From NCBI GenBank assembly GCA_005239175.1, contig SOPS01000004.1, forward strand, positions 186,001 through 250,000: 64,000 nucleotides of DNA, written 5' to 3'. Under the pieces are notes generated by a model. It ran no database searches. It saw only the letters and a program-made list of their open reading frames with translations, and was not told the origin of the DNA. Positions 7,888 to 34,708 of the stretch are shown here, piece after piece (within the stretch, counting starts at the first letter, position 1; each line of letters starts with the position of its first letter). Both the position numbers and the translations under genes were made by a program. This DNA comes from a halophilic archaeon SHRA6 (GTDB lineage Archaea > Halobacteriota > Halobacteria > Halobacteriales > Haloferacaceae).

Positions 7888-7893
7888 GGGTGG

Positions 7894-13631: not shown

Positions 13632-13737
13632 AGTGACGATTGCCGGGGGTTCGTAAAGTACCCACCGAACACCTGTCTGGACGATCGCTGTTGTCTTCGT
13701 CAGCGAACTTTTCACCGCCCACACCGTAGCTTACGAC

Positions 13738-18260: not shown

Positions 18261-18998
18261 CTAGCCGACCGTGCCGGTGATCAAAAGGGTGTTCCAGACA
18301 GTCAGTGCGGTGCCGACAATCCCGACCACGATCGGCGGCGCGTAGTACCCAAACCAATCGCTATCGCGTGCGCCACGAATCCCCATCCATAGCGCACCCG
18401 CAAACACCACGACTTTGATGCCGACAAACCCCGCAATTCCGTAGCGCTGCAACACCGCAAGGACGATCGGGTTGCCCTCAAAGAGCCCTGGGACAAAAAG
18501 AAGCGCAACAAGTGTCGAGACAAAATCACCGATTCCGTACGTCGCGATTGCGAAGGCCCAGAGTCCGTAAAACGTTATACCACCCGTTCGATACGTGTTG
18601 GCTGTCTTTTGTATCGACGACTTGATCGAGGCACCACCACCACCAGCGAATCGCTTACATCGAGAGGACAAAAGCGCGATCGGAACCCCATCCTTGGTTC
18701 GTGGAATGCGTTCTGCGTTTGGATCGTCCGATATCGCATCGAGTAGTGACCCCTCCTCAGTAGCGGTAACGAACACCAGCGGCTGTGTCGAGTGCATCGA
18801 TCGGACGCGATCGTACACATCTACGCCGTCAGTTGATTGCCCTGATACATCGAGAACAAGACAATCAGTGTCGCGAAGTTCGATCGGATTTGGGATCGAA
18901 CCGAACTGTGTGACCTCAATCCCGCGAGATGAGAGCCCCTCAGCGAGATCCGCTGATTGGCGTCCATACAGCCCAACAACCGGGGTCCGATACGTCAT
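18261..18998 (-). CDS. Receiver-like domain fused to a DUF5658-like membrane domain
   Basis: A 245-residue protein in two parts. Residues 1-115 look like a response-regulator receiver: first strand PVVGLYGRQSADL, the central DCLVLDVSGQSTDGVDVYDRV with the likely phospho-acceptor Asp after VL, and PLVFVTATEEG as the fourth strand. The acidic pair normally found at the first strand is missing, so it may not be phosphorylated. Residues 135-245 form four membrane segments with GDFVSTLVALLFVPGLFEGNP, paralogous to the protein encoded at 17734. A receiver attached to a membrane domain is unusual. Confidence 0.75.
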   Translation of the reverse strand: MTYRTPVVGLYGRQSADLAEGLSSRGIEVTQFGSIPNPIELRDTDCLVLDVSGQSTDGVDVYDRVRSMHSTQPLVFVTATEEGSLLDAISDDPNAERIPRTKDGVPIALLSSRCKRFAGGGGASIKSSIQKTANTYRTGGITFYGLWAFAIATYGIGDFVSTLVALLFVPGLFEGNPIVLAVLQRYGIAGFVGIKVVVFAGALWMGIRGARDSDWFGYYAPPIVVGIVGTALTVWNTLLITGTVG

Positions 18999-19133: not shown

Positions 19134-20624
19134 TCAACACGCACTGTCCGGCGTTACCGTACCGGCAACCGACGAGCAGTTTGACACGTCAATATCCCCG
19201 TCCGTGTCGATCGACAGATCACCGTCGATTGTCGAGCTTCCATCCAACTCCACTTCCACGTCATCACCCGTCGTGATCGTCATATCGCCAGAAACGCTCG
19301 AACTGCCGTCAAGCGTAACTGACACTTCTCCCTCTGTCTCGATCGAGAGACTACCGGTGATCGACGCGTTTCCAAGCACCTCGACTGTGACATCTCCCGT
19401 GGTATCGAGACTCACGTTTCCGTCAATCTGCGTACTTCCGTCGAGGGTGAGTGTCACGTCGTCTTCGGCTGTGACCGACAGGTCGCCGTTTACTTGTTCG
19501 TTTCCGGTCAGTTCGATGTCGACCTCATCAGAGGCGGTAACTGTGGCCGCTCCGTCGATGACATTCCCCCCTTGGTCGAGGGTTAGATCCACCTCTGACT
19601 CGTTCTCGATATCGAGCGATCCGAGCGATGCACCACCAGATAGGTCGACAGTCACGTCTGCAGGAGTGTCGATCGACATCGAACCAGTATCCGAGCCATC
19701 AGTAACGGTAACGTCTACGTCATCCTCAGATGTCACCGAAACCGGACCGCTGACTGACGAGCCCCCGCTGACGATGAGTCCGATCTCACCTGCACCGTCA
19801 AAACAGAGCCCGTCCGGGAGGTCTTGATTGATTTCCGCGTCGATATCGCCCTCACCAACGAGTTGCAGAACGCCGCCAATAGCGGCATTTCCACCGATAT
19901 CGAAGGTAATATCATCGCTTGAGTCCATTCGAATGTGATTGCCGATCGACGCGCTTCCTCCAAGAACGAGGTCTGCCTCGTCGCTCGCGTTGATTACGAG
20001 TGCGCCGCCGATGTCCGTATTGCCTTTGAGTCCCTCGTCGAACTCACCGGTCGTAATTTCAACACTGCAGTTTGTTGAACCAGATGGCGGGAGTTCGTTT
20101 TCGACACAGCCGGGGATCGAGGGCACCGCACAGACGCCACGGCCTCCCGTCCGACAGGTGACGTTTGTCGTTGTGGTCGTTCGCACTTCCTCGGTTTCAC
20201 CGGTTGCGACAATCTCTAGCTCGACGCTTTCGGTCGTCGTCTCCGAGCACGAAATCGTCGCTGACACCTCAAGTGGGTCGGCCGTATCGAACTGCTCGCC
20301 AGCAGCGAGTGGCGCTTCCACATCGACACTGATCGACGAGGCTGAAACGACCTCTACAGAGATGCTCTCGATCGGCTCAGGAAAGCGGTTGTAGAGTGTA
20401 ACAAGCGTCACTGTGTCTCCATCGTTGCCGGTCGGATTCTGCGGATCGATCCCAATCAGTTCGTTCCCGCCCCCGACTGGCAGGTTGAACCGTCGGTCGG
20501 CACTAACCGAGTCAAATGCGCCCGAGGCCCCAACAGCCGTGAGCCCGCCAGCGCCGATCAACGCGAGTGCAGCGCGGCGGCTCAGACCACCTGAACCGCC
20601 TCTACTGCGGCGACGGCGGGGCAT
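19134..20624 (-). CDS. Exported beta-solenoid repeat protein
   Basis: A 496-residue protein with an N-terminal twin-arginine signal (LSRRAALALIGAGGL) ending in ASGAFDSVSADR, the same junction as in the neighbouring DUF1102 proteins. A short Ig-like and Cys-containing part (residues 45-185; CRTGGRGVCAVPSIPGC) precedes about 13 imperfect repeats of 22 residues of the type LDGSSSVSGDMTITTGDDVE, predicted to form a right-handed beta-solenoid resembling bactofilins or adhesins. It ends in a cysteine. It is the last gene of a four-gene operon (23797 to 19134), 2 nt after the InlB-repeat gene. Confidence 0.8.
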   Translation of the reverse strand: MPRRRRSRGGSGGLSRRAALALIGAGGLTAVGASGAFDSVSADRRFNLPVGGGNELIGIDPQNPTGNDGDTVTLVTLYNRFPEPIESISVEVVSASSISVDVEAPLAAGEQFDTADPLEVSATISCSETTTESVELEIVATGETEEVRTTTTTNVTCRTGGRGVCAVPSIPGCVENELPPSGSTNCSVEITTGEFDEGLKGNTDIGGALVINASDEADLVLGGSASIGNHIRMDSSDDITFDIGGNAAIGGVLQLVGEGDIDAEINQDLPDGLCFDGAGEIGLIVSGGSSVSGPVSVTSEDDVDVTVTDGSDTGSMSIDTPADVTVDLSGGASLGSLDIENESEVDLTLDQGGNVIDGAATVTASDEVDIELTGNEQVNGDLSVTAEDDVTLTLDGSTQIDGNVSLDTTGDVTVEVLGNASITGSLSIETEGEVSVTLDGSSSVSGDMTITTGDDVEVELDGSSTIDGDLSIDTDGDIDVSNCSSVAGTVTPDSAC

Positions 20625-20626
20625 AA

Positions 20627-22720
20627 TTAATTATTCACCCCCTGGGCGGAAAACTGTAGCGAACCGACACGTTCGATGTCTTCGGTTCCATCTGTCGAAT
20701 CGATCTCGATGACGACCTCGATTATTGAGCCGACAGATAACCGAACTGTCTCTCCGACGAGGTTCGTGCCGGTTTCGGTGGCCTGGCCGTCCTCGTTCAA
20801 AACGCGGTAGGGCAACCGTAGCTGGTCAGTTTGTACGTTGTCGCCGTCTGCGTCGACGAGACGGACACCAACGTCAACTGGCGGTCCAGACTGTCCTCGG
20901 TTTTCGGGATCGCCGATGTTTGCGACGAGGAAGGCAATTCGATCGGAGCTGGTCGGATAGCCGTTCGAGCCAACGGTTCCGATCCGCGAGACTGCGTTCC
21001 GATTTGCGTTCTCGACCGAGAAGCCGGCGAAGAAGCCGTTTGGGTCCGTCTCGATGATGTCCGAACGAGTCATCTGACCTGACCACTCGACGCCTCCGGA
21101 AACGTTGATCGGATTGTCGGAATTATCTGGATCGGAGACAACTTGTACCTGTGTCGTCCCTCTCTCAACGAATACCGCAGTTATCGATCGGTCTTGATCC
21201 ATACGGACTGTCTGGGTCGTATCCTCACCTGAGAGATCGCCGTTCCACTCGAGGAAACGGTAATTCTCGTCTGGATCTGCGGTGAGTTCTACGGTTTCCC
21301 CATCTTCGTACGCAAATTCTCCTGCGGACTCAACTGTCTCATTGGGCGAGGAAAGAGACACGCTCCCAGATCCCTCGATCGAGATCTCAAGACCGTACTC
21401 CGGGGTAGTCTCAATTTCGGCGAATACCGCTGTTACGGACCGATCTTGAGTCATGCTGATTGTCTTGGACGCCCCAGCACCTGAGAGGTCGCCTTCCCAT
21501 TCGAGGAACTCGTAGTTTTCGGCTGGATCGGCGATTAGTTCAACCGACTCACCGAACTCGTACGTTAGCGTTTCAGTCGACCCGATCGTCTCGCCCGGCG
21601 GAGAAACAGATACGCTTCCAGATCCCTCGACGGAAACGTCAAGATCGACTTCCTGGAGTTCGAAGTTTGCAGTGACGTTTGTATTTTCTTCGATCTCCGC
21701 AATCTCAATGGTCGAATCGTCACCGGACGCATCGCCGCTCCATCCAACGAACTCGTAGCCCTCCTGTTCCCTTGCGCTTGCTGAGAGGGCCACAGATGTT
21801 CCCTGATCGACGGCCACTGACTGGGAGCTGTCCGGACCGATGGTGCTTGATTCGCCGTCGATTGTAACGTCGACTTCTCCTTCGCCGTTTACGTTGACAA
21901 CGAGTGTGGGGCGCTCTCCGAGAAGCGCAACAACGTTTTTATTTTGCTCGTCCAACGCCACTTCGATTTGTTCACTCGTTCCGGACGCATCACCGCTCCA
22001 CTCGTTGAACACCGAACCCTCATCGGCCGTGATCGAAAGCGAAACGACAGACCCGGCGGTGTACTCGCCGGTCCAGGATTCATCCGTATCAATCGATCCC
22101 GACGGTCCATCGCCCTCTTGGAGAGCGATGTTGACTGTCCCGGACCCGTCGCCCCCGATCGTGACCCCGAGGGTGAAGCTCGATCGTTCGAAGTTCGCGG
22201 TGACAGATTTATCGCCATCCATCTCCACCGTTACCGTTGAGTTGTCACCGGAGGCGTCGCCGCTCCAGCCGACGAAATCGTATCCCGAATCGGGAGTTGC
22301 GCTTAATCTCACCGTCTGTCCAGCCTCGTACCCTCGCTCTTCGCCATCTGTACTTGCGACCGGGAGCGGCGAGACACTAATCGATCCGCTTCCTTCGCCG
22401 GAAATACTCGTACGGAGTGAATAGTACTCCGCTTCCTCTTCTTCCGCTCCCTCTTCTTCCGCTCCCTCTTCTTCCGCTCCCTCCTCTTCGTCTTCAGAAT
22501 CGTCCTCTTCGGATTCCTCGTCATCTCCGCCCGCACCGTTTCCGTCTTCGTTCACTGATTCGTCTTCTTCTTCTTCACCGACGGTCATCTCGTTTGGCGA
22601 CACCCGAACGAAGTCGCCGCGGCTTCCTTCTGATCCAAATTCGAACGCGCCGCTGGCGATGAAGCCACTGGCTCCGAAGACGATCGTTCCGAGCCCGATG
22701 AGTGTATTTCTGCGGCGCAT
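20627..22720 (-). CDS. Exported InlB-repeat surface protein
   Basis: A 697-residue secreted protein. MRRRNTLIGLGTIVFGASGF and IASGAFEF form the export signal. An acidic stretch (residues 48-100, EEEEGAEEEGAE type) leads to five divergent InlB-B/listeria-type repeats of about 75 residues, each with a YxFxxWSGDASGD-like core and ending TANFE or TAVF. The last 170 residues (ENANRNAVSRIG, IAFLVANIGDPENRG) look like a DUF1102-type beta domain. It could act as an adhesin or fibre tip. It lies 7 nt after a DUF1102 gene and 2 nt before the beta-solenoid gene. Confidence 0.85.
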   Translation of the reverse strand: MRRRNTLIGLGTIVFGASGFIASGAFEFGSEGSRGDFVRVSPNEMTVGEEEEDESVNEDGNGAGGDDEESEEDDSEDEEEGAEEEGAEEEGAEEEEAEYYSLRTSISGEGSGSISVSPLPVASTDGEERGYEAGQTVRLSATPDSGYDFVGWSGDASGDNSTVTVEMDGDKSVTANFERSSFTLGVTIGGDGSGTVNIALQEGDGPSGSIDTDESWTGEYTAGSVVSLSITADEGSVFNEWSGDASGTSEQIEVALDEQNKNVVALLGERPTLVVNVNGEGEVDVTIDGESSTIGPDSSQSVAVDQGTSVALSASAREQEGYEFVGWSGDASGDDSTIEIAEIEENTNVTANFELQEVDLDVSVEGSGSVSVSPPGETIGSTETLTYEFGESVELIADPAENYEFLEWEGDLSGAGASKTISMTQDRSVTAVFAEIETTPEYGLEISIEGSGSVSLSSPNETVESAGEFAYEDGETVELTADPDENYRFLEWNGDLSGEDTTQTVRMDQDRSITAVFVERGTTQVQVVSDPDNSDNPINVSGGVEWSGQMTRSDIIETDPNGFFAGFSVENANRNAVSRIGTVGSNGYPTSSDRIAFLVANIGDPENRGQSGPPVDVGVRLVDADGDNVQTDQLRLPYRVLNEDGQATETGTNLVGETVRLSVGSIIEVVIEIDSTDGTEDIERVGSLQFSAQGVNN
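22441..22485. repeat. Intragenic 15-nt tandem repeat (Glu-rich)
   Basis: Three adjacent copies of CTTCCGCTCCCTCTT (the third slightly altered) within the InlB-repeat gene encode the repeated pentapeptide EEGAE on the minus strand. The 15-nt length keeps the frame, so copy number could change by slippage and lengthen or shorten the acidic stalk without destroying the protein. Confidence 0.85.
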
Positions 22721-22727
22721 CAGTGGA

Positions 22728-23225
22728 TCAATCCTCCGTACTCTCTGCAGTGATGGTTATTGTTTCACTGATTTCGATGTCTCCAGTCTCGCCGAGAAGG
22801 TCGATCGTAAATCCGAGCCCAGTATCATCCTCTCCCGGTCCAAGCTGATTGATATCGTCGAGCTTGTCGTGTATCTCGATGAGCTCTGGATCCCCTACAA
22901 ATTCGGCGCTGAGTGATACCGTCTGTGATCCGTTGTTTTGGAATCGAACCAGATTGTCAATCTTCGTTTTGGCATTTCGATTCACATCTTCGATGATAAT
23001 CGAGATCGTTCCATCGTCCCCTTCGTCAATACTGACGTACGATCGACCCTCTCCCTCCTCATTGGGAGATGTCATCTCAAGAAGGGCTTCGGAGTCATCG
23101 GCGAACTCAACGGTTACCTCACGATCGGCCTCAACAGAGGTGAACGCACCTGTGCCACCGATCAGCCCAGCTCCGGCTCCGAGTGTTGCGATCCCGAGCA
23201 GTAGTCGGCGGCGTGTGTGGTTCAT
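22728..23225 (-). CDS. DUF1102-family exported protein (paralogue 1)
   Basis: A 165-residue protein with signal MNHTRRRLLLGIATLGAGAG and junction GGTGAFTSVEADR (GAF at 26-28). The mature beta-rich domain contains the family core EDVNRNAKTKIDNLVRF followed by QNNGSQTVSL (residues 80-105). DUF1102 proteins are secreted and related in layout to TasA/camelysin fibre subunits; this relation is my inference. Its ATG shares one base with the stop of the upstream paralogue (TAATG), and the InlB-repeat gene follows after 7 nt. Confidence 0.85.
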   Translation of the reverse strand: MNHTRRRLLLGIATLGAGAGLIGGTGAFTSVEADREVTVEFADDSEALLEMTSPNEEGEGRSYVSIDEGDDGTISIIIEDVNRNAKTKIDNLVRFQNNGSQTVSLSAEFVGDPELIEIHDKLDDINQLGPGEDDTGLGFTIDLLGETGDIEISETITITAESTED

Positions 23226-23797
23226 TAGTCCTGTGCGGCCCCTGATTGTGCGACGATCCGCATTTGGTACGGATCGTCTGCTGGAGGTTGTTCGTACCCG
23301 CCATCTGTGGTGTCGATGTAGATGTCTACCGAAACGGACTCGCTTGGTCCAAGCGCAACTCCCGCAGATTCGAGGTCGACATCTGAATCGACCACATCCT
23401 GGTTGTCGCCTCTGGTCTCTGTGACCTGAAAGGTAACGCCATCGGCGTCGCCCGTGTCGATCGTCACCTCGACAGTCTGTGAGCCGTTGTTTTGCATCTC
23501 GAATACTTCGAAAAACCGCGTCTCCGAGTCCTCGTTCAGCGCAGGCCCTTCGCCGTTGCCGTCGTCGTCGATTCGGAAGAAGATGATGTCGTTACCGCCG
23601 GCTCCGCCTTCTTCTTCGCCCGCAATGAACTCGTTCAGGACGGTCAATCCAAGTAAACCTGAGGCGTCACCCGCGACCTCGACCTCGAAGCTCCGATCGG
23701 CTTCCACCGCATCAAACGCCCCAGAGCCGCCGATAATCCCAGCTCCCGCTGCGAGTGCTCCAAGGCCAATGATGGTGTTCCGTCGGGAGAGGTTCAT
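23225..23797 (-). CDS. DUF1102-family exported protein (paralogue 2)
   Basis: A 190-residue paralogue and first gene of the operon that runs to 19134. MNLSRRNTIIGLGALAAGAG gives a Tat-like signal and GSGAFDAVEADR the likely processing site (GAF 26-28). The core shows NEDSETRFFEVFEMQNNGSQ, then a beta domain ending with YEQPPADDPYQMRIVAQSG. A very AT-rich sequence (TTTATATTTTATTT) just before the ATG may hold the promoter. It lacks the ATACAAAG element found before four other paralogues. Confidence 0.85.
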   Translation of the reverse strand: MNLSRRNTIIGLGALAAGAGIIGGSGAFDAVEADRSFEVEVAGDASGLLGLTVLNEFIAGEEEGGAGGNDIIFFRIDDDGNGEGPALNEDSETRFFEVFEMQNNGSQTVEVTIDTGDADGVTFQVTETRGDNQDVVDSDVDLESAGVALGPSESVSVDIYIDTTDGGYEQPPADDPYQMRIVAQSGAAQD

Positions 23798-23914
23798 TAG
23801 TTTATATTTTATTTCTGAGGTACTTTATTGTCTGGTGTTTGAGTCTTGCCGTTCTAGCCGATCGATTCTGATTATATAAGTCAAGTTAGATTGGAGGGAA
23901 GACATCTTATATGA

Positions 23915-24481
23915 TTACGCTGCTGCCGAATTAGCGATGATCGTTATATCATACGCCTCGTCTGGTTCCTCGTATCCTCCCTCGGTTGTAGTGTCTATTT
24001 GTATATCGACAAGCGCAGCTTCACCCGGTCCGAATTCTGCACTCCCATTCTCTGCAGCAAGATTCACATCGCTACTGAGTGAGCTTAGTTGATCAGATCC
24101 GACAACAAACGAGATTCCGCTTGCACCGTCTTCTAATTCCATGCTAATATCTACAGTCTCAGAGCCGTTATTTTGGATCTGGAATGCATCAAAGAATTGT
24201 GTAACTGCGCCATCATTTATTGCGCTTGCATTTGCCCCTGATTCTTCATTATCAAGCGTGAAGTAGATGAGCGAGCTATTGCCGGCTCCGCCTTCTTCGG
24301 TGCCTGCAATTTCGGGTTTCTCAACTGTAAGGGATAACAGTGCAGCACTATCACCCTCAACACTAACTTCGAAACTACGATCGGCTTCCACGCTGTCAAA
24401 TGCCCCCGTGGCGTTGATCACGCCTGCTCCACCTGCCAATGCTCCGAGTCCGATGATCGTGTTGCGTCGTGTGAGCTCCAT
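23915..24481 (-). CDS. DUF1102-family exported protein (paralogue 3)
   Basis: A 188-residue protein very like paralogue 2: MELTRRNTIIGLGALAGGAG, junction ATGAFDSVEADR (GAF 26-28), then GDSAALLSLTVEKPEIAG and a core ending AFQIQNNGSETVDI. The C-terminal YEEPDEAYDITIIANSAAA also matches paralogue 2, so these two are recent duplicates. It has its own upstream element with ATACAAAG and is probably transcribed alone. Predicted secreted beta-sandwich subunit. Confidence 0.85.
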   Translation of the reverse strand: MELTRRNTIIGLGALAGGAGVINATGAFDSVEADRSFEVSVEGDSAALLSLTVEKPEIAGTEEGGAGNSSLIYFTLDNEESGANASAINDGAVTQFFDAFQIQNNGSETVDISMELEDGASGISFVVGSDQLSSLSSDVNLAAENGSAEFGPGEAALVDIQIDTTTEGGYEEPDEAYDITIIANSAAA

Positions 24482-24504
24482 CTCTTATACTACTATATAT
24501 TCCC

Positions 24505-24527
24505 TACCCTCTTTGTATTAAACCGCC
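24505..24527 (-). promoter_or_regulatory. Shared element upstream of DUF1102 paralogue 3
   Basis: A 23-nt element with core ATACAAAG on the coding (minus) strand, starting 24 nt before the ATG. It matches the element before the paralogue at 26966 in 21 of 23 positions. It may act as a TATA box or activator site common to the set. Confidence 0.55.
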
Positions 24528-24602
24528 AGAACGTGATCAGGTACTCCCGATCGAACGGTATCGGTATGCCCGTGAGCCGATCAAAGGCTGCCTGAACCCG
24601 AA

Positions 24603-25112
24603 TCAGTTCCCGTAGGCATCGGTATCAGCGACGAACGTGACCCCGTTGATATCTTCGAGATCGCTGCCACTCACGCCGGATGGACGGAGATCGATGATAA
24701 TGTCCACGTCAACGGAACTGCCCAGGTCCACATCAATCGCGTTCGACTCGCCCACGATCGTACCGTGGCCGCTGACCTCGAAGCCGATCGGGGATGGGTC
24801 TCCGTCAACGTAGAATCCAACATTTTGCGTACCGCCGTTGGTTACGGTGATCGCGTTATCGAACCGCGTTCGCGCGCGCTCGTTGATGTCGTCGTTGTTG
24901 ATGACCAGCAGATCGACCCCACCGTCGTCTTCGGTGTCGGTGATCGAGCTGTTGCCTTCGAGCTGTAACAGTGCGCTTGCGTCGCCAGCAGTGGAGACAG
25001 AGACCGTCCGATCGGCCTCGACACTCGTGAATGCTCCAGTCGCGCCGATCACTCCCGCGCCGCCTGCAAGCGTTGCCAGTCCGATCAATGTATTTCGTCG
25101 TGTGAATCCCAT
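24603..25112 (-). CDS. DUF1102-family exported protein (paralogue 4)
   Basis: A 169-residue protein with signal MGFTRRNTLIGLATLAGGAG and junction ATGAFTSVEADR (GAF 26-28), followed by SVSTAGDASALLQLEGNSS. The core is NNDDINERARTRFDNAITV with NGGTQNVGFYV, and the end VTFVADTDAYGN. It is closest to the protein encoded at 26966. Monocistronic by position, with an upstream ATACAAAG element. Predicted surface-fibre type subunit by family and context. Confidence 0.85.
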   Translation of the reverse strand: MGFTRRNTLIGLATLAGGAGVIGATGAFTSVEADRTVSVSTAGDASALLQLEGNSSITDTEDDGGVDLLVINNDDINERARTRFDNAITVTNGGTQNVGFYVDGDPSPIGFEVSGHGTIVGESNAIDVDLGSSVDVDIIIDLRPSGVSGSDLEDINGVTFVADTDAYGN

Positions 25113-25142
25113 GTGTATGGATACTTGTACGCCTCAAGAGCG

Positions 25143-25159
25143 CTTTGTATCGAGCACCC
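25143..25159 (-). promoter_or_regulatory. Shared element upstream of DUF1102 paralogue 4
   Basis: Contains the same ATACAAAG core on the minus strand and matches the 27461-27477 copy in 14 of 17 positions, at a similar distance (about 31 nt) from the ATG at 25112. Confidence 0.45.
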
Positions 25160-25300
25160 TGCCCGCTGTCAAGAGATTTCTGCTGCGGCTTTCGGTGTGG
25201 ACGAACTGCGTGTGATACAACAGGTAAAATCGATCGCCACGGGCGGTATTTTGGTCCCATCCAGGTGTGTCAGGGACGATCAGTGCGATGATGACTGATA

Positions 25301-25876
25301 TCAGACTTCTGCAGAAACCGTTAGTCGGCCTTGTAGATCAATATTCTCCGTGTCGACGCCCGATAGATCGTACCCTTGGCTCTCTCTCGTTTCGATCGCC
25401 ATCGCAAGACCGGTGACAGACTGACCAACCTCGAGAACGTCCGGATCACCATCTATCTCTGCCTCTTCAAGGAGATTTGTCTCTTCGCTCGGTTCGATAA
25501 CCAGTTCTCCGTGGTCTTCGTTGCCCAAGTTCTCCATACTAAACGTCAGGCTTGTGATATTCTGTGAGCCGTTATTGGTGAACTTGATCAGATCGCTGAA
25601 CGTCACCCGTGCGTTTCTGTTCACGACGACAATGTCAATCTCGATTTCACCGTCGTCATTTTGATACACATCGATCGGGTTCTGTTGTCCTCCATCGCTT
25701 TGCTCAACCACACCGTCGGCTGGCTCCATAGTCAATGCGGCGCTCGTATCGTCTGCGAACTCAACGCTGACTTGCCGTTCAGCGTCCACCGAGTCGAACG
25801 CACCAGTTGCGGTGATCGCTCCTGCTCCGCCTACGAGAACCCCAAGTCCGAGTACTGTTTGTCGACGTGTTACCAT
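25301..25876 (-). CDS. DUF1102-family exported protein (paralogue 5)
   Basis: A 191-residue protein: MVTRRQTVLGLGVLVGGAGA, junction TATGAFDSVDAERQ (GAF 25-27), then VEFADDTSAALTMEPADG. The core VVNRNARVTFSDLIKF is followed by TNNGSQNITSLTFSM. It is most like paralogue 1 in the VEFADD segment. Monocistronic with its own ATACAAAG-type element. The six paralogues differ in loops but keep signal, core and ending, consistent with a diversified subunit set. Confidence 0.85.
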   Translation of the reverse strand: MVTRRQTVLGLGVLVGGAGAITATGAFDSVDAERQVSVEFADDTSAALTMEPADGVVEQSDGGQQNPIDVYQNDDGEIEIDIVVVNRNARVTFSDLIKFTNNGSQNITSLTFSMENLGNEDHGELVIEPSEETNLLEEAEIDGDPDVLEVGQSVTGLAMAIETRESQGYDLSGVDTENIDLQGRLTVSAEV

Positions 25877-25902
25877 CTTGAGAGAGCCTACTCATTCTCA
25901 CG

Positions 25903-25920
25903 TCTTTGTATTGATACGCC
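25903..25920 (-). promoter_or_regulatory. Shared element upstream of DUF1102 paralogue 5
   Basis: The 18-nt sequence matches the 24505-24527 element in 15 of 18 positions, including the AATACAAAGA core on the minus strand, starting about 27 nt before the ATG at 25876. Confidence 0.5.
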
Positions 25921-26076
25921 AGACCGGCGATCAGGGAGGTCCAGATTCGCGTTCTAGATCGTCAGAGACCGTTTGACGGGCCACCTTGACCGTCGATACG
26001 TTTATTCATGCCGTCGCTCATCCACAGTACAACGCCTGCCCGTGCAGCGGATGCAAAGCGAGATACCACCAACACA

Positions 26077-26850
26077 ATGAACAATCGTCGCCCATTAACG
26101 ACCACCCAATCCAAATCCGATCGCGGTCTGCTCCGATCGGTCCTCGCGCTCGTGTTGCTCGCTGCGATCGCCGGCGGCGCAGCGGTCGCGTTCACCGACC
26201 TCGGCGCGTCGATCGACACCAGCGACATCGAAGCGCTGTGGACCGAAACCGAACAAGAGCGCGTTATCGAGAACGACTCGGACGACTCAACGGCGGCCGC
26301 GACCGGCGGCTCGGACGGCCCGAGCTACGATCTGGCCGGAGACGAGGAGACGAACGACTCCGATCGCGGTGCGGACCTCAACGAAACCGTAGTTGAACGC
26401 GAGATTCACCGCCAGATCAACGCCGAGCGAACCGATCGCGACCTGGAGCCGCTGGCGTGGGACTCGGAGCTGGCAGCGATCGCACGGAATCACTCACAGA
26501 ACATGCTCGAAGAGGAGTTCTTCGACCACGTCGACCACGAGGGTCGCACCGTCGCAGATCGCTACGACGCGGCCGGCTACGAGTGTCGGATTGATCTTGA
26601 GGGCGATCGGTTTATTGAGGGTGGTGGAGAGAATATCGCACAGAACTGGTTCGATCGGCGGGTAACGTTGGAAAATGGGGAGACCGATCGGTATGAGAGT
26701 GAGGAGGAGTTAGCGAGGGCTGTCGTTGCGCAGTGGATGAACTCAGAAGGTCATCGGGAGAATATTTTGCGAGAAGGATGGGAGAATGAAGGGATTGGGG
26801 TTATAATATCTGAAGAGGACGAGACATATGTGACCGAAAATTTCTGCTGA
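26077..26850 (+). CDS. CAP-domain (SCP/PR-1-like) exported protein
   Basis: From ATG 26077 the protein has 257 residues: an N-terminal membrane anchor or signal (LLRSVLALVLLAAIAGGAAV), an acidic low-complexity linker, and a CAP domain from about residue 120. Landmarks are EIHRQINAERTDRDLEPLAWD, IARNHSQNMLEEEFFDHVDH, and AVVAQWMNSEGHRENILREGW with HVDH and EGHRENI as the usual metal-site and lipid-binding motifs. A TATA-like TTTATT at 26001 argues for this start over an ATG at 26008. The last 250 nt use different codons from the rest. It sits inside the DUF1102 cluster on the opposite strand. Confidence 0.88.
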   Translation: MNNRRPLTTTQSKSDRGLLRSVLALVLLAAIAGGAAVAFTDLGASIDTSDIEALWTETEQERVIENDSDDSTAAATGGSDGPSYDLAGDEETNDSDRGADLNETVVEREIHRQINAERTDRDLEPLAWDSELAAIARNHSQNMLEEEFFDHVDHEGRTVADRYDAAGYECRIDLEGDRFIEGGGENIAQNWFDRRVTLENGETDRYESEEELARAVVAQWMNSEGHRENILREGWENEGIGVIISEEDETYVTENFC

Positions 26851-26965
26851 TCTGTTTGGGTTATGTATATAATGCAATGATACGCCAGTCTCAATAAATT
26901 CCGGTTGGTTCGGTTGGATGACACTGAGCAGGTTAAAAAAATTATCTGGAGAATTTATTCTGATA

Positions 26966-27433
26966 CTAGGTGGATGCGTTGAACGTGACAGTACCGGAGG
27001 TGTCTACCTCCTGTGTAGTGTCTACAACAACATCAACTTGAACGGTGTCCCCAGAGCCGAGGTCTTGATTATCAACCTCAAACTCAACACCAGTCATACT
27101 GTTGTTGTCAACTGTTAGTGTCACATCTTGATTACCATTGTTGCTCACATCGATTGCACCATCGAACGTTGTAGTGGCGTTGTCATTGATATTTTCGAGG
27201 TCTACGGACATTATTGTTTCACTATTCGCCCCTTCTTCACCAGTATCATTGATACCATCAAATTTAGTATCATTTACAGCCAACCCAAGATTCGCGCTCC
27301 CGTCACCAGCTGTTGCAACAGTGACAGTACGATCGGCTTCTACACTTGTAAACGCGCCCGTGGCGCCGATTATCCCTGCTCCCGCTACCAGTACTGCTAA
27401 CAATACGATCGTGTTGCGACGTGTGAGTCCCAT
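26966..27433 (-). CDS. DUF1102-family exported protein (paralogue 6)
   Basis: A 155-residue protein starting at ATG 27433 with signal MGLTRRNTIVLLAVLVAGAG and junction ATGAFTSVEADR (GAF 26-28). The core SVDLENINDNATTTFDGAIDV with SNNGNQDVTLTV matches the family, and it ends with VDTSGTVTFNAST. It is one of the shortest members. An upstream frame extension to 27538 is not supported. Monocistronic, preceded by the ATACAAAG element. Confidence 0.85.
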   Translation of the reverse strand: MGLTRRNTIVLLAVLVAGAGIIGATGAFTSVEADRTVTVATAGDGSANLGLAVNDTKFDGINDTGEEGANSETIMSVDLENINDNATTTFDGAIDVSNNGNQDVTLTVDNNSMTGVEFEVDNQDLGSGDTVQVDVVVDTTQEVDTSGTVTFNAST

Positions 27434-27454
27434 TACGTCTATATCATATGCCCA

Positions 27455-27477
27455 TACCCTCTTTGTATCAAGCCGCC
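27455..27477 (-). promoter_or_regulatory. Shared element upstream of DUF1102 paralogue 6
   Basis: A 23-nt sequence nearly identical (21 of 23) to the copy at 24505-24527 and at the same distance (22 nt) from its ATG. The surrounding sequence is not conserved, which suggests selection on the element itself. Confidence 0.55.
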
Positions 27478-27596
27478 TGAATGATCGCCAGGCTCTCCCC
27501 CAAAACTGTATGGCACCCCACAAAACCGCTTCAAACACTGCCTGATCGCCCGAAATCGCCCGTCTCAGTCAAAAGACGTGCTACCGAAGCACAAGA

Positions 27597-28061
27597 TTAC
27601 TGATCGCTCCGGGACTCGTTGATCTTCTCGATGAACTCCGAATCGGAGAGTCGATCGTTTACGTACTTCTCTGCCCACTCGTGTTCGATCCGGAACGACT
27701 CCTCAAACATCCCCCGGTCCTCGACGCGGACCCGAAGATCACGATCGACCGACTCAACCACCGTCGCGTACACACTCGCGGCGGTCACCATGTCGTCGTC
27801 GATCGAGCCACTCGTCTGGATCGTCACCACGATCTCCTCGTCGTCTTCCTCCGCGGCTGTGATCTCAACGTCACGTGATTCGAACTGATCGACCACCGTC
27901 TCCGCCTCGGAACTCAACTCCGCGGCGTCATCGTCCTCGCTCTCGTCTTCGTCCTCATCACCCGAGGAGAAGCCACCGCTGACCTCTTCACCGAGACACC
28001 CAGCAAGCGAAAGAGAAACGATCGCTGCCGACGCGGACCGAAGCGCTGTGCGGCGATCCAT
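27597..28061 (-). CDS. Tat lipoprotein with acidic linker
   Basis: A 154-residue lipoprotein from ATG 28061: MDRRTALRSASAAIVSLSLA then the lipobox GC, followed by a strongly acidic linker (GDEDEDESEDDDAAE) and a small alpha/beta domain with EIVVTIQTSGSIDDDMVTAASVYATVVE. It should sit on the outer membrane face. The domain is not recognised. It lies between the DUF1102 paralogues and the winged-helix regulator, on the same strand, and may belong to the surface locus. Confidence 0.75.
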   Translation of the reverse strand: MDRRTALRSASAAIVSLSLAGCLGEEVSGGFSSGDEDEDESEDDDAAELSSEAETVVDQFESRDVEITAAEEDDEEIVVTIQTSGSIDDDMVTAASVYATVVESVDRDLRVRVEDRGMFEESFRIEHEWAEKYVNDRLSDSEFIEKINESRSDQ

Positions 28062-28119
28062 GTCGTATGAGGCGGATCTACAGATTGTAAACTCTTGGGG
28101 AATGCGTGTCACGATTCGA

Positions 28120-28671
28120 TCACTCCTCGAGTTCTGGCGGCATGTCTGCGGTATGAAACTTCATCTGCTGGGATTCAATGTAGTGTGCGACACCCGAGAT
28201 CCCGACGATCACAATAAACAACGCCGCGACGGTCGAGACGGATATCATAGGCGGGAGCAGCTCCAACACTGCAAGCGCGTACATGAACCCACCGACGACA
28301 GCGAGCCCGACGTAGTACAGTGCCCACGGAATGTTCTTTTCGGACACGACCTCGAGATAGACGTCGAGATTCTTCGCCTTCTCAGTCGTCGTGATCCGAT
28401 CGCCCTCGACCTCAATCAGCCCTGCATCCTCGAGCTTCGAGAGATGATGCTGTTGGATCGAGGTGTACACCCGCTTTCGCTCAGCTGAAGTGACCTCGTT
28501 GATCGGTTTATCATACTCCCACGCAGCAACCTGCTCTGCGACGTCTGAGAGCGTCGTCTCCCCATTTGCTTGGTTACACGCGTAGAGCACGTACCGGCGA
28601 CGGTGATTGCTCAACACCGTGAACATCGTGTTTTTGCTCTCTCGCGACTGCTCCTTCGCGAGCGAACTCAT
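28120..28671 (-). CDS. Winged-helix membrane regulator (DUF7344 type)
   Basis: A 183-residue protein. Residues 12-110 form a winged-helix domain of DUF7344 type: FTVLSNHRRRYVLYACN, TLSDVAEQVAAWEYDKP and YTSIQQHHLSKLEDAGLIEV. Residues 115-160 hold two membrane segments (ALYYVGLAVVGGFMYALAVL and VSTVAALFIVIVGISG), so the DNA-binding domain is membrane-tethered. It sits 69 nt downstream of the signal peptidase gene and probably controls this surface cluster in response to an envelope signal. Confidence 0.85.
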   Translation of the reverse strand: MSSLAKEQSRESKNTMFTVLSNHRRRYVLYACNQANGETTLSDVAEQVAAWEYDKPINEVTSAERKRVYTSIQQHHLSKLEDAGLIEVEGDRITTTEKAKNLDVYLEVVSEKNIPWALYYVGLAVVGGFMYALAVLELLPPMISVSTVAALFIVIVGISGVAHYIESQQMKFHTADMPPELEE

Positions 28672-28740
28672 CGTCCTCCCCCCATATTATCAGTGACAAA
28701 TATCCTATGTCAGTCACAGGAGTTAATAATTCTCCTTTAT

Positions 28741-30474
28741 TTACCGATCGATCCCCGATCGCTCCATCAGTCGCGCACACTCCTCTTGGGAGTACTCGAT
28801 CCCGTAGGAGTCCATCAGATGCGCTTGGACCGCTGCGGGCGTCCACCGATCGGCATCCCTCCCCACTGCGTTCGGTGGCTCCTGCAGCGTCGTATGCAGT
28901 TCGATCAGCTGGCGATCGCTCAGTTGATCGAACTCCTCGAATCCCCCCATCCCCGATGCTTCCGTCTCTTCTTGGAGTTGCCCGAATTCGAAGCCGCTAC
29001 TCGCCGCTTGATCGCTGCCGCCGGCCAGGCCCGAATCGATCGTTTCTTGACCCGAATCGATTGTCTCTTGACTCGAATCACTCGTTTCCCAGTTCGATCC
29101 AGCTGTTTCACCGCTCACGGCCGATCGAACCTCAGCGGGCGTCATGTCGTCGATGGGATCGAATTCCGAGCTAGTTCCATCCGGACCAGTCCATTGTTCG
29201 GCTGATGCGGTTCTGTTGGGACCCGGTTTGGCCTCTGTCGACTCCTCGTCATCGAACAGTCCGAACCAATTATAGCTTGGGTCTGACCCTGGCCGGACAC
29301 CTGTGTTGCGCCCACTTCCGCCGGGGACTGTCGGAAACGCCCGTTTGATCTCCTCGCCGATCGACAGCTCTCGGCGGCGCGAGCGGAGCCTGACCCGATC
29401 GGTTCCGATCGTCCCGACAGAGACGATTATGACGAACGCCGTGACCACGAGGTTGATCCCTGCGAAGGCGGCGACCGGGTGGATCTCGTGTAGCGCCGCA
29501 ATCAACGAGGGCGGAAGCACGACGAGATATCGATGCTCGCGGACAAACCGGAGATACGAGCCAGTTTCTTCGGGGGCTTGCATCGTTACAGATGTCTCTA
29601 CGGTGGACCGTCTCGGGACGTACGTCTGGGTATCCTGGACTTCAACGCCCTCACCAGCAGGCTCTAAGAAGACCAGCACTGGGAGATGCCCGCTGTTTCT
29701 CATCGCGTAGGTCACTTCGCTCGACCCGCCCGCCTCAATTATCTGTTCGTTGTCAGTCGGTGACGTCGAACTAATAATCTCGTACTGATACACCCCGGAC
29801 GGCAGCAACATCGAGAAGTTCAGCGGGATGATCACCACGAGTGTCAAGATCGCGATGATGACGACCGCGTTCTGGAGGATGCTCCCTTTCGATCGACTCC
29901 GGCTTCGTTTTCCAGTCGTTCCCGTCGCCACGCTGAAAATGTACAGTACCAACCCGCCAGCAAGGATGCCCGTTGAGATTGTTGTAATCTCTGGTGCATC
30001 CATACCGAATGCCGAAAAAACGGCCGTCGAAACCGACCTGATTCCGTCGTTTATACCCACGACAAACGCTCCCAGTCCCGGAATCCGAACTGGATCGCTC
30101 CCCATAGTGAGCGCGACCGATCGGATCTGGCCGTCAGACACGACTGGCTCGTCGCCGTCCTGATCGGTAAACGGGTTGGCATCTCCCTTTGTGATATATC
30201 CCTCGTCTGTAACTGCCTCTACCCGGTGGGTCGTGAGTTCACCCCCGCCGAGTTCCTGTGACATGAACAGAATGATATCACCCTCCTGTGGCTCTCCAGC
30301 GAACAACGCCGGCACCGCAATGTAGCCGTCGTTCGGCTCAAGGGTGGGCGCCATACTCCCCGTCTCAACGAAGACAATAAACGGTTGTCCGAGCAACTGG
30401 CTCAAAAGCAGCAGTCCAATGAGGCCGACGATGACGAGAACGACGGCGTACTGCAGCAGTTCGCTCGGTTTCAT
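28741..30474 (-). CDS. SipW-type (S26B) signal peptidase with long C-terminal extension
   Basis: A 577-residue membrane protein. Residues 1-125 are a signal peptidase I of the ER/SipW type: membrane helix, then ETGSMAPTL with nucleophile S40, TTHRVEAV with H83 in place of the bacterial Lys, and KGDANPFTDQD. Three more membrane segments follow (about 135-155, 160-180, 200-220), then an extracytoplasmic beta region (225-300), another span (335-360) and a cytoplasmic tail of about 200 residues with repeated SQETIDSGQETIDSG and a final helical domain. The usual archaeal enzyme is far shorter. Its neighbours are candidate substrates. Confidence 0.9.
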   Translation of the reverse strand: MKPSELLQYAVVLVIVGLIGLLLLSQLLGQPFIVFVETGSMAPTLEPNDGYIAVPALFAGEPQEGDIILFMSQELGGGELTTHRVEAVTDEGYITKGDANPFTDQDGDEPVVSDGQIRSVALTMGSDPVRIPGLGAFVVGINDGIRSVSTAVFSAFGMDAPEITTISTGILAGGLVLYIFSVATGTTGKRSRSRSKGSILQNAVVIIAILTLVVIIPLNFSMLLPSGVYQYEIISSTSPTDNEQIIEAGGSSEVTYAMRNSGHLPVLVFLEPAGEGVEVQDTQTYVPRRSTVETSVTMQAPEETGSYLRFVREHRYLVVLPPSLIAALHEIHPVAAFAGINLVVTAFVIIVSVGTIGTDRVRLRSRRRELSIGEEIKRAFPTVPGGSGRNTGVRPGSDPSYNWFGLFDDEESTEAKPGPNRTASAEQWTGPDGTSSEFDPIDDMTPAEVRSAVSGETAGSNWETSDSSQETIDSGQETIDSGLAGGSDQAASSGFEFGQLQEETEASGMGGFEEFDQLSDRQLIELHTTLQEPPNAVGRDADRWTPAAVQAHLMDSYGIEYSQEECARLMERSGIDR

Positions 30475-30574
30475 TTGTGTTTTCGGGCTACAGATACTAG
30501 TCGGCCGATCGATATGAACGTTGTCCCGAGTGTATGAAAGTCACCATATCCATGTGTATCGAGCGACACGAATC

Positions 30575-31711
30575 TCAGAAGTCGTATCGATCGACGTCGT
30601 CGAGGGTGGTGTCAGCGTAGTTGAGCAACCAATCGCGGGCCGGCGAATCAGGCCTGACATAGATGTAGATGTAATTGTCATCTAACACCGTGCTGACGCC
30701 CAGTTGCTCGTCTTCGATCACTCGTTTGTTCGTGTCAATCGCCACGTCCACAAGCCCCTCAAGATCGTCGACGAGGATCGTTTGCTCGTATTCCCGCTCA
30801 GAGGGGAATGTGCCGGTGGTGATCCACTCGGAGAACCGATCGCGTGCTTGCTCGAGCCGTAAGACCTCCTCTTCTTCCTCGGTGAGCCCCGTGTACCCAG
30901 CGTACCGACCGGCGATCAATACGACTAGGAGGGCGACTGCAAGGGCAGCGAGTGCGATCGATCCGTATGCCTCCAGTGGCGATGGGTCTACGATAACCTC
31001 GGTTTGCTGGAACGTTTGATGCTGCTCTTCGACGAGATTCGTATTTATGACACGAAACGTCGCCGGCTCAACGACCAACACCATCTCGCTCTCGTAGGTT
31101 TCCGACACCGACTCATCCTCGACTGTGCCCTCAATCTGCGACACAGTCACCACCCGCACGTCGACTAACCCCTCTGATGCACCCAGCTGTTCTTCCACGG
31201 TTGCGATCGTCTCAAGTACAAACTGGATGTCAACGGTAAATTGGGTGGTGTACGCGTCTCCTGGTGAAAGTCCCTCTCGCGTGTCGCTATCGAGGGGCTC
31301 GGTGAACTCCCAGTAGGTCTGGACGAACTCCTGATCTTCGAGTTCACCGCCACGGATGCGCAGGTACGTCTCAGTCTGGACACTGACGTCTCCACTGTCG
31401 GCGCTGTACCTGTACGTGTGATTGCCATCTAGTTCCTCCGAGAGCCGTGTGTAGTATAGTGGACGATTTGACACCGTCTCTCCGCGAGAGAACACCAGCG
31501 AATCGTTGGTTATCTCTGCACTGTGATTGTATGATGTTGATTCGGTCCATTCTTCGACGAGCCGCTCTTCCTGTTGGACCTCTGGAACCATGTTCACCTG
31601 GTAGGCCCAAAAGCCAAGTCCGGCGCTCGCAAGCAAAAGCCCGATAGCGAGGACAGTAAACCAGGTGTCGAGAAACGCACGGATCCGAACCGACCGATCG
31701 ATTTCCACCAT
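30575..31711 (-). CDS. DUF5305-domain membrane protein
   Basis: A 378-residue protein from ATG 31711. One membrane segment (about residues 13-37, FTVLAIGLLLASAGLGFWAY), an extracytoplasmic beta-rich part (38-250), a second span (255-280, SIALAALAVALLVVLIAG) and a cytoplasmic domain (285-378) with PSEREYEQTILVDDLEGLVDVAIDTNKRVI. This matches the haloarchaeal DUF5305 family, whose genes commonly stand beside SipW-type signal peptidases. It probably supports assembly or anchoring of exported subunits. It lies 100 nt upstream of the peptidase in the same direction. Confidence 0.85.
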   Translation of the reverse strand: MVEIDRSVRIRAFLDTWFTVLAIGLLLASAGLGFWAYQVNMVPEVQQEERLVEEWTESTSYNHSAEITNDSLVFSRGETVSNRPLYYTRLSEELDGNHTYRYSADSGDVSVQTETYLRIRGGELEDQEFVQTYWEFTEPLDSDTREGLSPGDAYTTQFTVDIQFVLETIATVEEQLGASEGLVDVRVVTVSQIEGTVEDESVSETYESEMVLVVEPATFRVINTNLVEEQHQTFQQTEVIVDPSPLEAYGSIALAALAVALLVVLIAGRYAGYTGLTEEEEEVLRLEQARDRFSEWITTGTFPSEREYEQTILVDDLEGLVDVAIDTNKRVIEDEQLGVSTVLDDNYIYIYVRPDSPARDWLLNYADTTLDDVDRYDF

Positions 31712-31909: not shown

Positions 31910-34708
31910 ATGGAGGAACGGATTCGTGTGCTCGCCGTCGATGCTGACGTAGCGGTGTTACGCCAGCGTGCACGAATCCTCGAAGATCGACATGGGTTCG
32001 ACGTCGATACAGCCCAGAGTATTCAGACAGCCAAAGAGCGACTGAACGACAGCGCCCAGTCTATCGATTGTATTCTGTATCACGCCGTCACCGATCGGAT
32101 TGATGACGCGCTTGAATTCATCAGTTGGGTCGCTGATCGGTTTCCATCGATTCCAACCGTGTTCTCGACGGACGTATCGATCGACTCGATGCCAGATGAA
32201 GCGTTCGAATGCGGCGCAACTGCCTTTGTCCCGGCCGGAAAGACAACAGCCCCACATAACCGGTTGGCCTCGCGAATCCGGAGTCTCGTGACTGCACAAC
32301 TGGAGTCAGCATCTCCAGAAGACAGCGGTTTTGTATGGCTTGGTGGCGATCAGCCAGACACACCGACCGCGAATGATGACAAAGCGGACGCCATACAGGA
32401 TGAGCCAACGGACGACAATCAACAGATCCCACCCGAGACGATCGCGTCGATCAGGAAAGCACTCAAAGCGGACGGCTATTCGACGCGATCGAATCGCCTT
32501 GTCGCATTTTTGTTACTCGAAGTCCTGCATCGAGTTCGGGGAAACTCCTCTGACGAGACCCACTCCGCCAGCGAGACACACTCCCTCGATGAACTCGAAG
32601 CGGGATATGAACGGGTTGTCGAGCGGATTACCACCCAGAGTCATCAGACCGACAATGCGGACACTGCGCCGGCTCCAATTGAGCCCAACAGAGTACTGCA
32701 GATCATCGATGAGGAATTCCCGTCTGTTACGGGCGATGCGTTTTCATCGTTACTTGGCCAGCTTTTAGATATACAACGGGGTGACGGATCCAGGGCCCGC
32801 GAGTTTGCGTCCCCAATAGACGACACACCGGTTGATGAGGAAGATGAGATGGATCCGCTATTAGCGCTCGTACAAACCTCACTGGGTGAGATGAGTGCTG
32901 ACGTACTTCCTGATGAACTATCGAACGAGCCTGAAGTAGCTGAAGAGATCGGTCCAGAAGACACAGCACCATCGATTGAGTCGCCTCCGACGCCGGAAGT
33001 CGCACAATCTGACGGTGGGCTTTTGGGCCTCGTTGAAGCCGCGTTCTCCGATCCCCGAGCGATCGATGGAGATGACAAACCCCCGACAGCGTTGCTTAAC
33101 GACGCGGACGACTCGGTTGTTTCGGAGTCACAATTCGATACTCCGACCTCCGGTGATGTCCCCACTGAAGCGGGTGGTTCTACATCCGAGGAGGAAGAGA
33201 CTTCTAACTCTGTGGCCAGTCTTGTGAGCGCTGCGCTCTCAGAGACAGATGGCAATACTGGCGTTGCCGATTCGTCGGCTGAACATAACACCGACAGGGA
33301 AGCGATCGGAGAATCCCCGATCGAAGCACGCGACACTGAAGCACTCAGTGAGTATCCGATCGGTGAACTCGACACTGAGGAGATTGATGTGTCTGCACTT
33401 GATGAACACGACGCCAAAGCAGCCCGTGAGTCTGCTCAAGAGGCACACAAATCCGATGCAGCCGATGAGTCCACTCATCACGAACACGACACTGAGGCGA
33501 TCGAAGAGTCAGTTATCGAGGAAACCAGGGCCGAGGAGATTGAAGAATCGGATATCGCGGAACTCGAAGAGCTAACCGAAACCGAACCCAACGCTATACT
33601 GAACGACATTACTGCGGAGGTTAGCGACGATCGTCTCAAGAACCTCTCACGGGACGAGTTGCTGGCGCTCGTGAAAGACTTAACCGACAGCGAAACACAA
33701 ACTGGCGCAGACCAGACAGCGTCTGAACGCACCCCAGAAGACGATACCACAGTCACAACGACGGCTGAGGAGACGACAGGGGATACGGCAGTAGCGGATG
33801 ATTCACCGGAATCCACCTCAGACGTCTCAACAGCCAAGGATCTGAGTCAGCCCACCGATGATTCGAGACAACAACCCGAGGATCTGGGTCAACCAACCGA
33901 CGAAACGAGACAACAACCCGAGGATCTGAGCCAGTCGACCGACAAATCGAGACAATCACGCGATGATCTGAGCCAGTCGACCGACGATCGGGCCCAAGCT
34001 ACCGGCACAACACAGACTCGGAATACGGCCGACGAGTCGGCGGCAATGAGCCAACCCGATAAGTCGGCTTCCCCAGACGTAGATACTCAATCGACTGATC
34101 CGTTCGATCAGTTCGGCTCGGGTCAGACCGAATACGATCGGCCGGGGGATCTGGAACTGACTCCGGGGGATGTCGTATTAGTTCAGTGTGGCTCACAAGA
34201 TGACAGAAAACAGCAGGCCTGCATCGATCTGCTCGGTGTCGATGACGTTGCCGATCGAAACGTGTTACTTGTTCGATACACGGAGATGAACGGACCACGT
34301 CTCGAGCGTATCGCCACACATGCAAACCGAGTAACGCTCGTTAGCGTCGGCTACAACCAGCGGGTTCCACAGTCGGTCCAACAAGCGGTACGGACAGTCA
34401 ACGTGACGAACCCGAACGATGTAACGCGCCTCGGAATTGTCATTACTGCGACCCTCGACAACTGGAGTGCTCGTGACGGCGAGACAGTCGTCTGCTTCGA
34501 TCCGCTCAACGTGTTGCTTCGATACAAGAACGTCGAAAACGTGTTCCGCTTCCTCCACATCCTTCTTGGAAAACTCAGAAGCGGGAACGCGATTTCGCAC
34601 TTCCACGTGGACCCGACTGCCGGAGATCCACAGGAAATTAACACGCTAAAACCACTTTTCGACTCAGTACTGACGATCGACTCCGTCGGCGTGTCAGTAG
34701 AACACTGA
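31910..34708 (+). CDS. Large regulator: degenerate receiver, acidic linker, DUF7504 domain
   Basis: A 932-residue protein. Residues 1-125 resemble a receiver domain (IRVLAVDADVAVLRQRARIL), but the phospho-acceptor strand reads CILYHAVTD, with His where Asp is expected, so it is probably not phosphorylated. Residues 140-740 are acidic and low complexity, with degenerate repeats such as EHDTEAIEESVIEE and DLSQPTDDSRQQPEDLG. Residues 745-932 match the haloarchaeal DUF7504 (RecA-like, without Walker motifs) domain: VLLVRYTEMNGPRLERIA and FRFLHILLGKLRSGNAISHF. It is divergent from the surface locus and could regulate it. Confidence 0.8.
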   Translation: MEERIRVLAVDADVAVLRQRARILEDRHGFDVDTAQSIQTAKERLNDSAQSIDCILYHAVTDRIDDALEFISWVADRFPSIPTVFSTDVSIDSMPDEAFECGATAFVPAGKTTAPHNRLASRIRSLVTAQLESASPEDSGFVWLGGDQPDTPTANDDKADAIQDEPTDDNQQIPPETIASIRKALKADGYSTRSNRLVAFLLLEVLHRVRGNSSDETHSASETHSLDELEAGYERVVERITTQSHQTDNADTAPAPIEPNRVLQIIDEEFPSVTGDAFSSLLGQLLDIQRGDGSRAREFASPIDDTPVDEEDEMDPLLALVQTSLGEMSADVLPDELSNEPEVAEEIGPEDTAPSIESPPTPEVAQSDGGLLGLVEAAFSDPRAIDGDDKPPTALLNDADDSVVSESQFDTPTSGDVPTEAGGSTSEEEETSNSVASLVSAALSETDGNTGVADSSAEHNTDREAIGESPIEARDTEALSEYPIGELDTEEIDVSALDEHDAKAARESAQEAHKSDAADESTHHEHDTEAIEESVIEETRAEEIEESDIAELEELTETEPNAILNDITAEVSDDRLKNLSRDELLALVKDLTDSETQTGADQTASERTPEDDTTVTTTAEETTGDTAVADDSPESTSDVSTAKDLSQPTDDSRQQPEDLGQPTDETRQQPEDLSQSTDKSRQSRDDLSQSTDDRAQATGTTQTRNTADESAAMSQPDKSASPDVDTQSTDPFDQFGSGQTEYDRPGDLELTPGDVVLVQCGSQDDRKQQACIDLLGVDDVADRNVLLVRYTEMNGPRLERIATHANRVTLVSVGYNQRVPQSVQQAVRTVNVTNPNDVTRLGIVITATLDNWSARDGETVVCFDPLNVLLRYKNVENVFRFLHILLGKLRSGNAISHFHVDPTAGDPQEINTLKPLFDSVLTIDSVGVSVEH

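Follow-up and report, generated by a model that had tools for sequence, protein, structure and literature searches.

Among the closest described systems are the haloarchaeal Tat-fimbriae (tafi), with the proteins TafA, TafC, TafE and TafF (Galeva et al. 2025, iScience 28:111793, as cited in PMC12687288). The entry 9p0a (2025, "Structure of Natrinema sp. J7-2 Tafi pilus") holds one solved subunit type of such a pilus. Beta-sandwich fibre subunits are also found in a distant archaeal lineage, in the bundling pili of Pyrobaculum calidifontis (AbpA, 7ueg), and the Bacillus tapA-sipW-tasA system joins a dedicated signal peptidase to fibre subunits, in that case of another family and exported by the Sec route. 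Here we describe a locus in a window of 64,000 nt of the haloarchaeon SHRA6 (GCA_005239175.1, contig SOPS01000004.1, positions 186,001–250,000, forward strand) that is very probably a variant of the Tat-fimbriae, the assembly mechanism being carried over from its relatives by analogy. Like Tat-fimbriae loci, it has Tat signals with a G-A-F motif, TafE-like subunits and a TafC-like N-domain, with an S26B signal peptidase, a DUF5305 protein and a DUF7344 protein as neighbours. Unlike them, it has no TafA over the cut-off, no TafF was found, its six subunits are of about three types, a solenoid stands in for the TafC tail, one subunit is decorated with InlB repeats and the peptidase carries a winged-helix tail. 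A literature search on DUF1102, 9P0A and DUF5305/DUF7344 turned up nothing useful.

Results and Discussion

Gene Organization and Conservation

Every gene that the preliminary description had grouped at 19134–31711 of the window is present on the minus strand as an open frame, and the gene order is kept in other haloarchaea. Read along that strand, the genes encode the DUF5305 membrane protein (30575–31711; E 1e-50, as named before), the signal peptidase, the DUF7344 regulator, a putative Tat-type lipoprotein (RR...LAGC; 27597–28061), the fibre subunits tE6 to tE1, the InlB protein and the solenoid protein. The class proposed at that time was right: a haloarchaeal surface fibre built from several subunits, with a Ser/His signal peptidase of its own and accompanied by adhesive proteins. 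The limits were drawn too narrowly: a minus-strand gene at 18261–18998, for a membrane protein with a degenerate receiver-like (REC) N-terminus and a DUF5658-like part of four TM segments (weak Pfam hits), is conserved beside fibre genes in Halonotius L031, as is the lipoprotein gene (99.5 bits), and its relative there (L031:5269–6063, 162.6 bits) directly adjoins the solenoid gene. At the other end a receiver/DUF7504 gene (31910–34708, plus strand), divergent from the DUF5305 gene, is a neighbour kept in L034 (L034:1094–2308, 201.8 bits). Between tE6 and tE5, on the opposite strand, sits a gene for a membrane-anchored, SCP-like CAP-domain protein with one TM segment (26008–26850, plus strand; Pfam CAP E 1.7e-16); no match to it was found in L031 or L034, and its membership of the fibre cluster is uncertain. 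The G+C content is 0.53–0.58 at window positions 17001–38000 and about 0.60–0.62 in much of the remaining window, with a second low stretch (0.49) at 2001–4000.

Over 30 haloarchaeal loci contain much of this gene set (DUF7344, TafE-like, S26 peptidase, DUF5305), and its clustering is therefore not due to chance. In L034, from a Haloferacaceae MAG, the genes follow the order seen in the window, with three subunits, and three Halonotius loci (L033, L035 and L036) have the peptidase–regulator part with no fibre genes within the fetched flanks, the Halonotius fibre genes being on another contig (L031, G023). The same S26 peptidase, DUF5305 and DUF7344 neighbours occur in L017, a locus with TafC, TafA, TafE and TafF; in L014, TafC and TafA exceed their cut-offs and TafF is sub-threshold. 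A second locus of this kind, more distantly related, occurs on contig C2 of SHRA6 itself (L013, G000:C2:586000-605000, at about 7817–13861). It comprises a 155-aa TafC-like N-domain protein, a DUF7344 protein, one subunit, a short peptidase and a DUF5305 protein; the DNA element discussed below has no strong copy in L013.

Shared DNA Element, Regulator and Signal Peptidase

Versions of GTTCWGGC-N5-AATACAAAG-N-GGG lie 35–38 nt upstream of the start codons of tE6 (27457–27482), tE5 (25900–25925), tE4 (25139–25164) and tE3 (24507–24532), all on the minus strand. This shared promoter element is absent from the preliminary description, as are the winged-helix tail of the peptidase and the Tat signals of the InlB and solenoid proteins. 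The sequence ATACAAAG occurs four times in the 64 kb, all at these subunit genes, where 0.34 occurrences are expected, and all three sites with 0–1 mismatches to the element in the whole genome (3.36 Mb) are among these four copies, the remainder not rising above the reversed control. The element matrix has 26 columns and 25 bits. In a held-out test, with a matrix trained only on element sites of other genomes and 100 simulated windows as control, the four window elements rank first, at 27.9 bits (tE3), 24.8 bits (tE6), 19.6 bits (tE5) and 9.7 bits (tE4), with a simulated maximum of 17.0 bits; the tE4 copy, the weakest, with an exact ATACAAAG, is thus not significant alone. The element is also present upstream of subunit genes in the held-out loci L008, L052, L020 and L040.

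The gene at 28120–28671 (minus strand) indeed encodes a membrane-tethered winged-helix protein (DUF7344, E 5e-26), with two hydrophobic stretches as TM segments. In a regulator tree of 38 rows, an independent one that accords with the subunit tree described below, it falls in a clade (98/91) with those of two true tafi loci, and the presence of the element is clustered on this tree (6 changes versus 12.4 when shuffled). Loci L018, L037, L041, L043 and L044 combine the element with a short peptidase, so that the peptidase tail is not needed as its reader and the DUF7344 protein is the better candidate; we infer that this membrane regulator is the likeliest reader of the shared element. In the true tafi locus L017, the divergent TafA/TafE promoter (L017:7912-8085) contains several copies of CTCARGC and CAATAGTAA that resemble the window's element in a drifted form.

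The signal peptidase (28741–30474, minus strand; 4 TM segments) had been described as SipW/ER-type. The ER-type part of that label stands: with the archaeal-type model the protein scores 50.9 bits (cut-off 51.85), human Sec11 comes first in both the PDB sequence search and the fold search, and Ser40, His83 and Asp98 are invariant in 28 aligned relatives, which makes it a Ser/His and not a Ser/Lys peptidase of the S26B type. The SipW part falls, the SipW model giving 24.4 bits where 190 are required. All 28 aligned relatives share an outer beta domain in the second half (about 227–317) that resembles MSP/PapD-like Ig domains; this PapD-like likeness is suggestive and weak, because Ig-like folds are common. 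With 577 residues versus about 385 in the usual form, the window peptidase has an extra part, predicted as a disordered acidic linker followed by a high-confidence helical domain (518–577), and the hydropathy pattern and positive-inside rule place this tail in the cytoplasm. It scores 20–24.7 bits with HTH_33 (Pfam cut-off 25 bits); three Halonotius orthologues have two HTH_33 domains each, over the cut-off at 37–44 bits, and the L034 tail gave no HTH_33 hit. Extended tails were found only in the window, in one MAG (L034) and in Halonotius, and their occurrence at the same place in L034 and three Halonotius species rules out a sequencing or frame artefact. To our knowledge SipW has neither an outer Ig domain nor a winged-helix tail, and we know of no other case in which a signal peptidase extends into the cytoplasm with a winged-helix-like domain.

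It is quite possible, if the less probable case, that the element is a basal promoter (BRE/TATA-like) only and that the HTH_33-like tail binds protein and has no regulatory role. The TATA box of a leaderless haloarchaeal transcript is expected at about 35–38 nt from the start codon, the very position of the element, and the sole hit of the tail under E 0.1 among PDB sequences is a poor match to an acetyltransferase (E 0.018). The element is, however, long, specific within the genome to these genes and unlike TTTAWA boxes, and its clustering on the regulator tree also argues against this alternative. At the opposite extreme, the peptidase may be a transmembrane two-way device that outside cuts and chaperones subunits and inside, through its winged-helix tail, helps control the subunit promoters, via the shared element or via the DUF7344 regulator. 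We regard this as improbable; if true, processing load or fibre assembly would be reported straight to transcription.

Six Subunits of About Three Types

The six paralogues, all on the minus strand, are tE1 (22728–23225; TafE model E 7e-21), tE2 (23225–23797; E 8e-21), tE3 (23915–24481; E 7e-17), tE4 (24603–25112; 129.8 bits), tE5 (25301–25876; E 5e-15) and tE6 (26966–27433; E 5e-21, starting at an internal ATG before GLTRRNT). They vary in length and the others are 33–48% identical to tE4. In the subunit tree tE2 pairs with tE3 (100/93) and tE1 with tE5 (99/95), with L034:7209 as a further tree partner of tE1; tE2 has an orthologue in L034:6637 (204 bits), and the tree leaves tE4 and tE6 unplaced. 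The simplest reading is that of about three types, each doubled: type B (tE2 and tE3), type C (tE1 and tE5) and type A (tE4, nearest to TafE, and tentatively tE6). Up to six subunit-like genes are also found in L022, L024 and L028, several with long C-terminal parts (372–832 aa in total), so that subunit expansion and decoration appear widespread.

The genes for tE2, tE1, the InlB protein and the solenoid protein lie close together, separated by a few nt or overlapping, and no element precedes tE2, whereas tE3 to tE6 have a copy each. These four genes, presumably co-transcribed, might accordingly specify one fibre, with tE3 to tE6 as alternatives used under other conditions. We consider two fibres unlikely, though worth bearing in mind, as the members of the paralogous pairs tE3/tE2 and tE5/tE1 could be interchangeable parts of a single fibre.

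Family, Export Signal and Fold of the Subunits

The preliminary description had recognized six paralogues and labelled them DUF1102. The NCBIfam TafE model ("fimbrial adapter protein" of haloarchaeal Tat-fimbriae; the Taf models are NF052520-NF052523) matches all six at 55–130 bits (cut-off 155; best 129.8, for 24603–25112), and in fact all of 60 aligned subunits. The DUF1102 label itself calls for a caveat: one of the six reaches this Pfam model, at 18.5 bits and under its cut-off of 22.2, and the model attains E <= 0.01 in 23 of the 60 relatives aligned. A PF06510 profile search of the genome gave no match, so that DUF1102 is a poor marker, and the Taf models were used in its place. With TafA (curated cut-off 190 bits) the best window score is 36.3, and no protein of the genome exceeds the cut-off. 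The TafF model gave no match in the SHRA6 genome, in a search run without a positive control; the same model finds TafF in L017 and L014. Since no cut-off for TafA, TafC or TafE is passed and no TafF-like gene was found, we speak of a tafi variant.

The subunit tree joins the window's six to those of L034 and Halonotius (94/98), within a clade (95/97) that holds TafA (L001_1489) and TafE (L001_2327 and L002_725). Compared with PDB sequences, the subunit profile has one strong relative, 9p0a chain C, over the whole length (E 1.7e-39); tE4 alone matches this chain at E 1.4e-11, and the 9p0a N-terminus is nearly identical to L004/L037, members of the same clade as the window subunits. Comparison of predicted folds with TasA and AbpA had been proposed before, with archaeal bundling pili and TasA/SipW as the expected relatives. 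When the AlphaFold model of tE4 (pLDDT 77.6) is searched by fold against the PDB, 9p0a is the best hit and the sole one under 0.001, the match being modest (E 8.8e-4, TM 0.51, rmsd 16.6 Å over 192 columns, about 24% identity in the fold alignment). AbpA (7ueg) comes at rank 14 (E 0.043), a beta-sandwich likeness in fold with no sequence similarity found, and no TasA entry is among the 50 best hits. The bundling pili are thus borne out as relatives in fold and TasA/SipW is not, 9p0a being closest. Taken together, the six paralogues belong to the Taf clade and are beta proteins of the pilin type.

Across the 60 aligned subunits, the window's six included, R5 and R6 (the twin arginine), G26, A27 and F28, and R35 are invariant, and a twin-arginine signal followed by the G-A-F motif is common to eight window proteins, namely the six paralogues, the solenoid protein and the InlB protein. 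The subunits are therefore predicted from their signals to leave the cell by the twin-arginine (Tat) route. In 9p0a_C, 215 residues are present in the sequence and 188 in the model; the difference of 27 is the stretch through the A of G-A-F, which suggests cleavage of the subunits directly before the F. The mature chain of TasA starts at residue 28, and its donor strand likewise starts there (PMC9674648).

Separate Tat-exported Ig-like proteins of the surface or S-layer, with signal and peptidase in common and forming no fibre, would fit subunits that diverge this far from tE4, vary in length and all stay below the TafA cut-off. Such a set of proteins is improbable given their clade with TafA and TafE, their kinship to a solved pilus subunit and their conserved N-terminal strand motif. 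A TasA/SipW (camelysin) system proper, with Sec-exported subunits and SipW processing, is very improbable: a Ser/His peptidase adjoins beta-rich subunits, there is a weak SipW match (24.4 bits) and a distant fold likeness to AbpA, but the twin-arginine signals are invariant, the SipW cut-off of 190 bits is missed, the window subunits have no Pfam or NCBIfam hit to the TasA/camelysin family and TasA is missing from the 50 best fold hits.

Solenoid and InlB-Repeat Proteins

Both decorated proteins of the Tat-fimbria variant start with a Tat signal and S-G-A-F. The solenoid protein (19134–20624, minus strand) matches the NCBIfam TafC model with residues 15–158 (78.5 bits, E 5e-22); the match is confined to the N-terminal 140 positions and misses the full-length cut-off of 410 bits. 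Its pilin-like N-domain (about 35–158) aligns to the subunit profile (hhalign 98%), and its C-domain has a period of 22 residues (identity 0.25 at lag 22 versus about 0.09 background), in keeping with the beta-solenoid noted before. The TafC tail in tafi loci reads as LamG-like, and by its sequence the window protein is a TafC-like protein in which this tail is swapped for the 22-residue beta-solenoid. The TafC model also matches, below cut-off, in the control genome of Methanosarcina acetivorans, hinting that the pilin-type domain extends beyond haloarchaea.

The InlB-repeat protein (20627–22720, minus strand; predicted to be Tat-exported) is likewise as first described, with five copies of Pfam Flg_new_2 (E 3.8e-55), placed between the GAF motif with its linker and a pilin-like C-domain (about 520–697). 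The C-domain alone aligns to the subunit profile (90%, E 1.7e-6); with the whole protein the signal region alone is aligned. The orthologues in L034 and Halonotius L031 lack any repeats and keep both the signal and the C-terminal domain, so that the repeats are most simply seen as an insertion into a pilin-type protein. In L020, a fibre locus of the other genome of the same genus, there is a 2409-aa open frame (L020:9847-17076) starting MNRKQTLALLTAALLVTSAVAGTGAFSSISADRD, with the G-A-F strand motif and a Sec-like signal.

Conclusion

For this variant of the Tat-fimbriae we envisage subunits that fold in the cytoplasm and exit via Tat. The dedicated peptidase would cut them between the A and the F of G-A-F, and the N-terminal strand released in this way (F-x-S-V-E-A-D-R-x-V-x-V) would slot into the neighbouring subunit's groove. 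TasA assembles like this, and the same is expected of the Tafi pilus; fibres would in this way lengthen on the cell surface. Until its addition, a cut subunit may be held by the DUF5305 protein and by the peptidase's Ig/PapD-like outer domain. As a TafC-like adhesin the solenoid protein may sit at the tip or at a branch, and the InlB protein may be another decorated subunit. Control of the shared element probably lies with the membrane-bound DUF7344 protein, and the peptidase may use its winged-helix tail to couple processing to this control.

New in the window are the six subunits of about three types, the solenoid TafC-like protein, the InlB-inserted pilin-like protein, the Ser/His peptidase with a possibly PapD-like Ig outer domain and a winged-helix-like tail, and the shared DNA element. 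Few archaeal surface structures have been recognized as recently as the Tat-fimbriae, and the locus offers a testable promoter element, a candidate regulator and a tailed signal peptidase. With its relatives it shows a modular system, in which regulator, peptidase, DUF5305 protein and the pilin-type domain with its G-A-F strand form a fixed core that takes exchangeable adhesive modules (LamG-like, beta-solenoid, InlB repeats), and in which the number of subunits varies, from three genes in L034 to six in the window.
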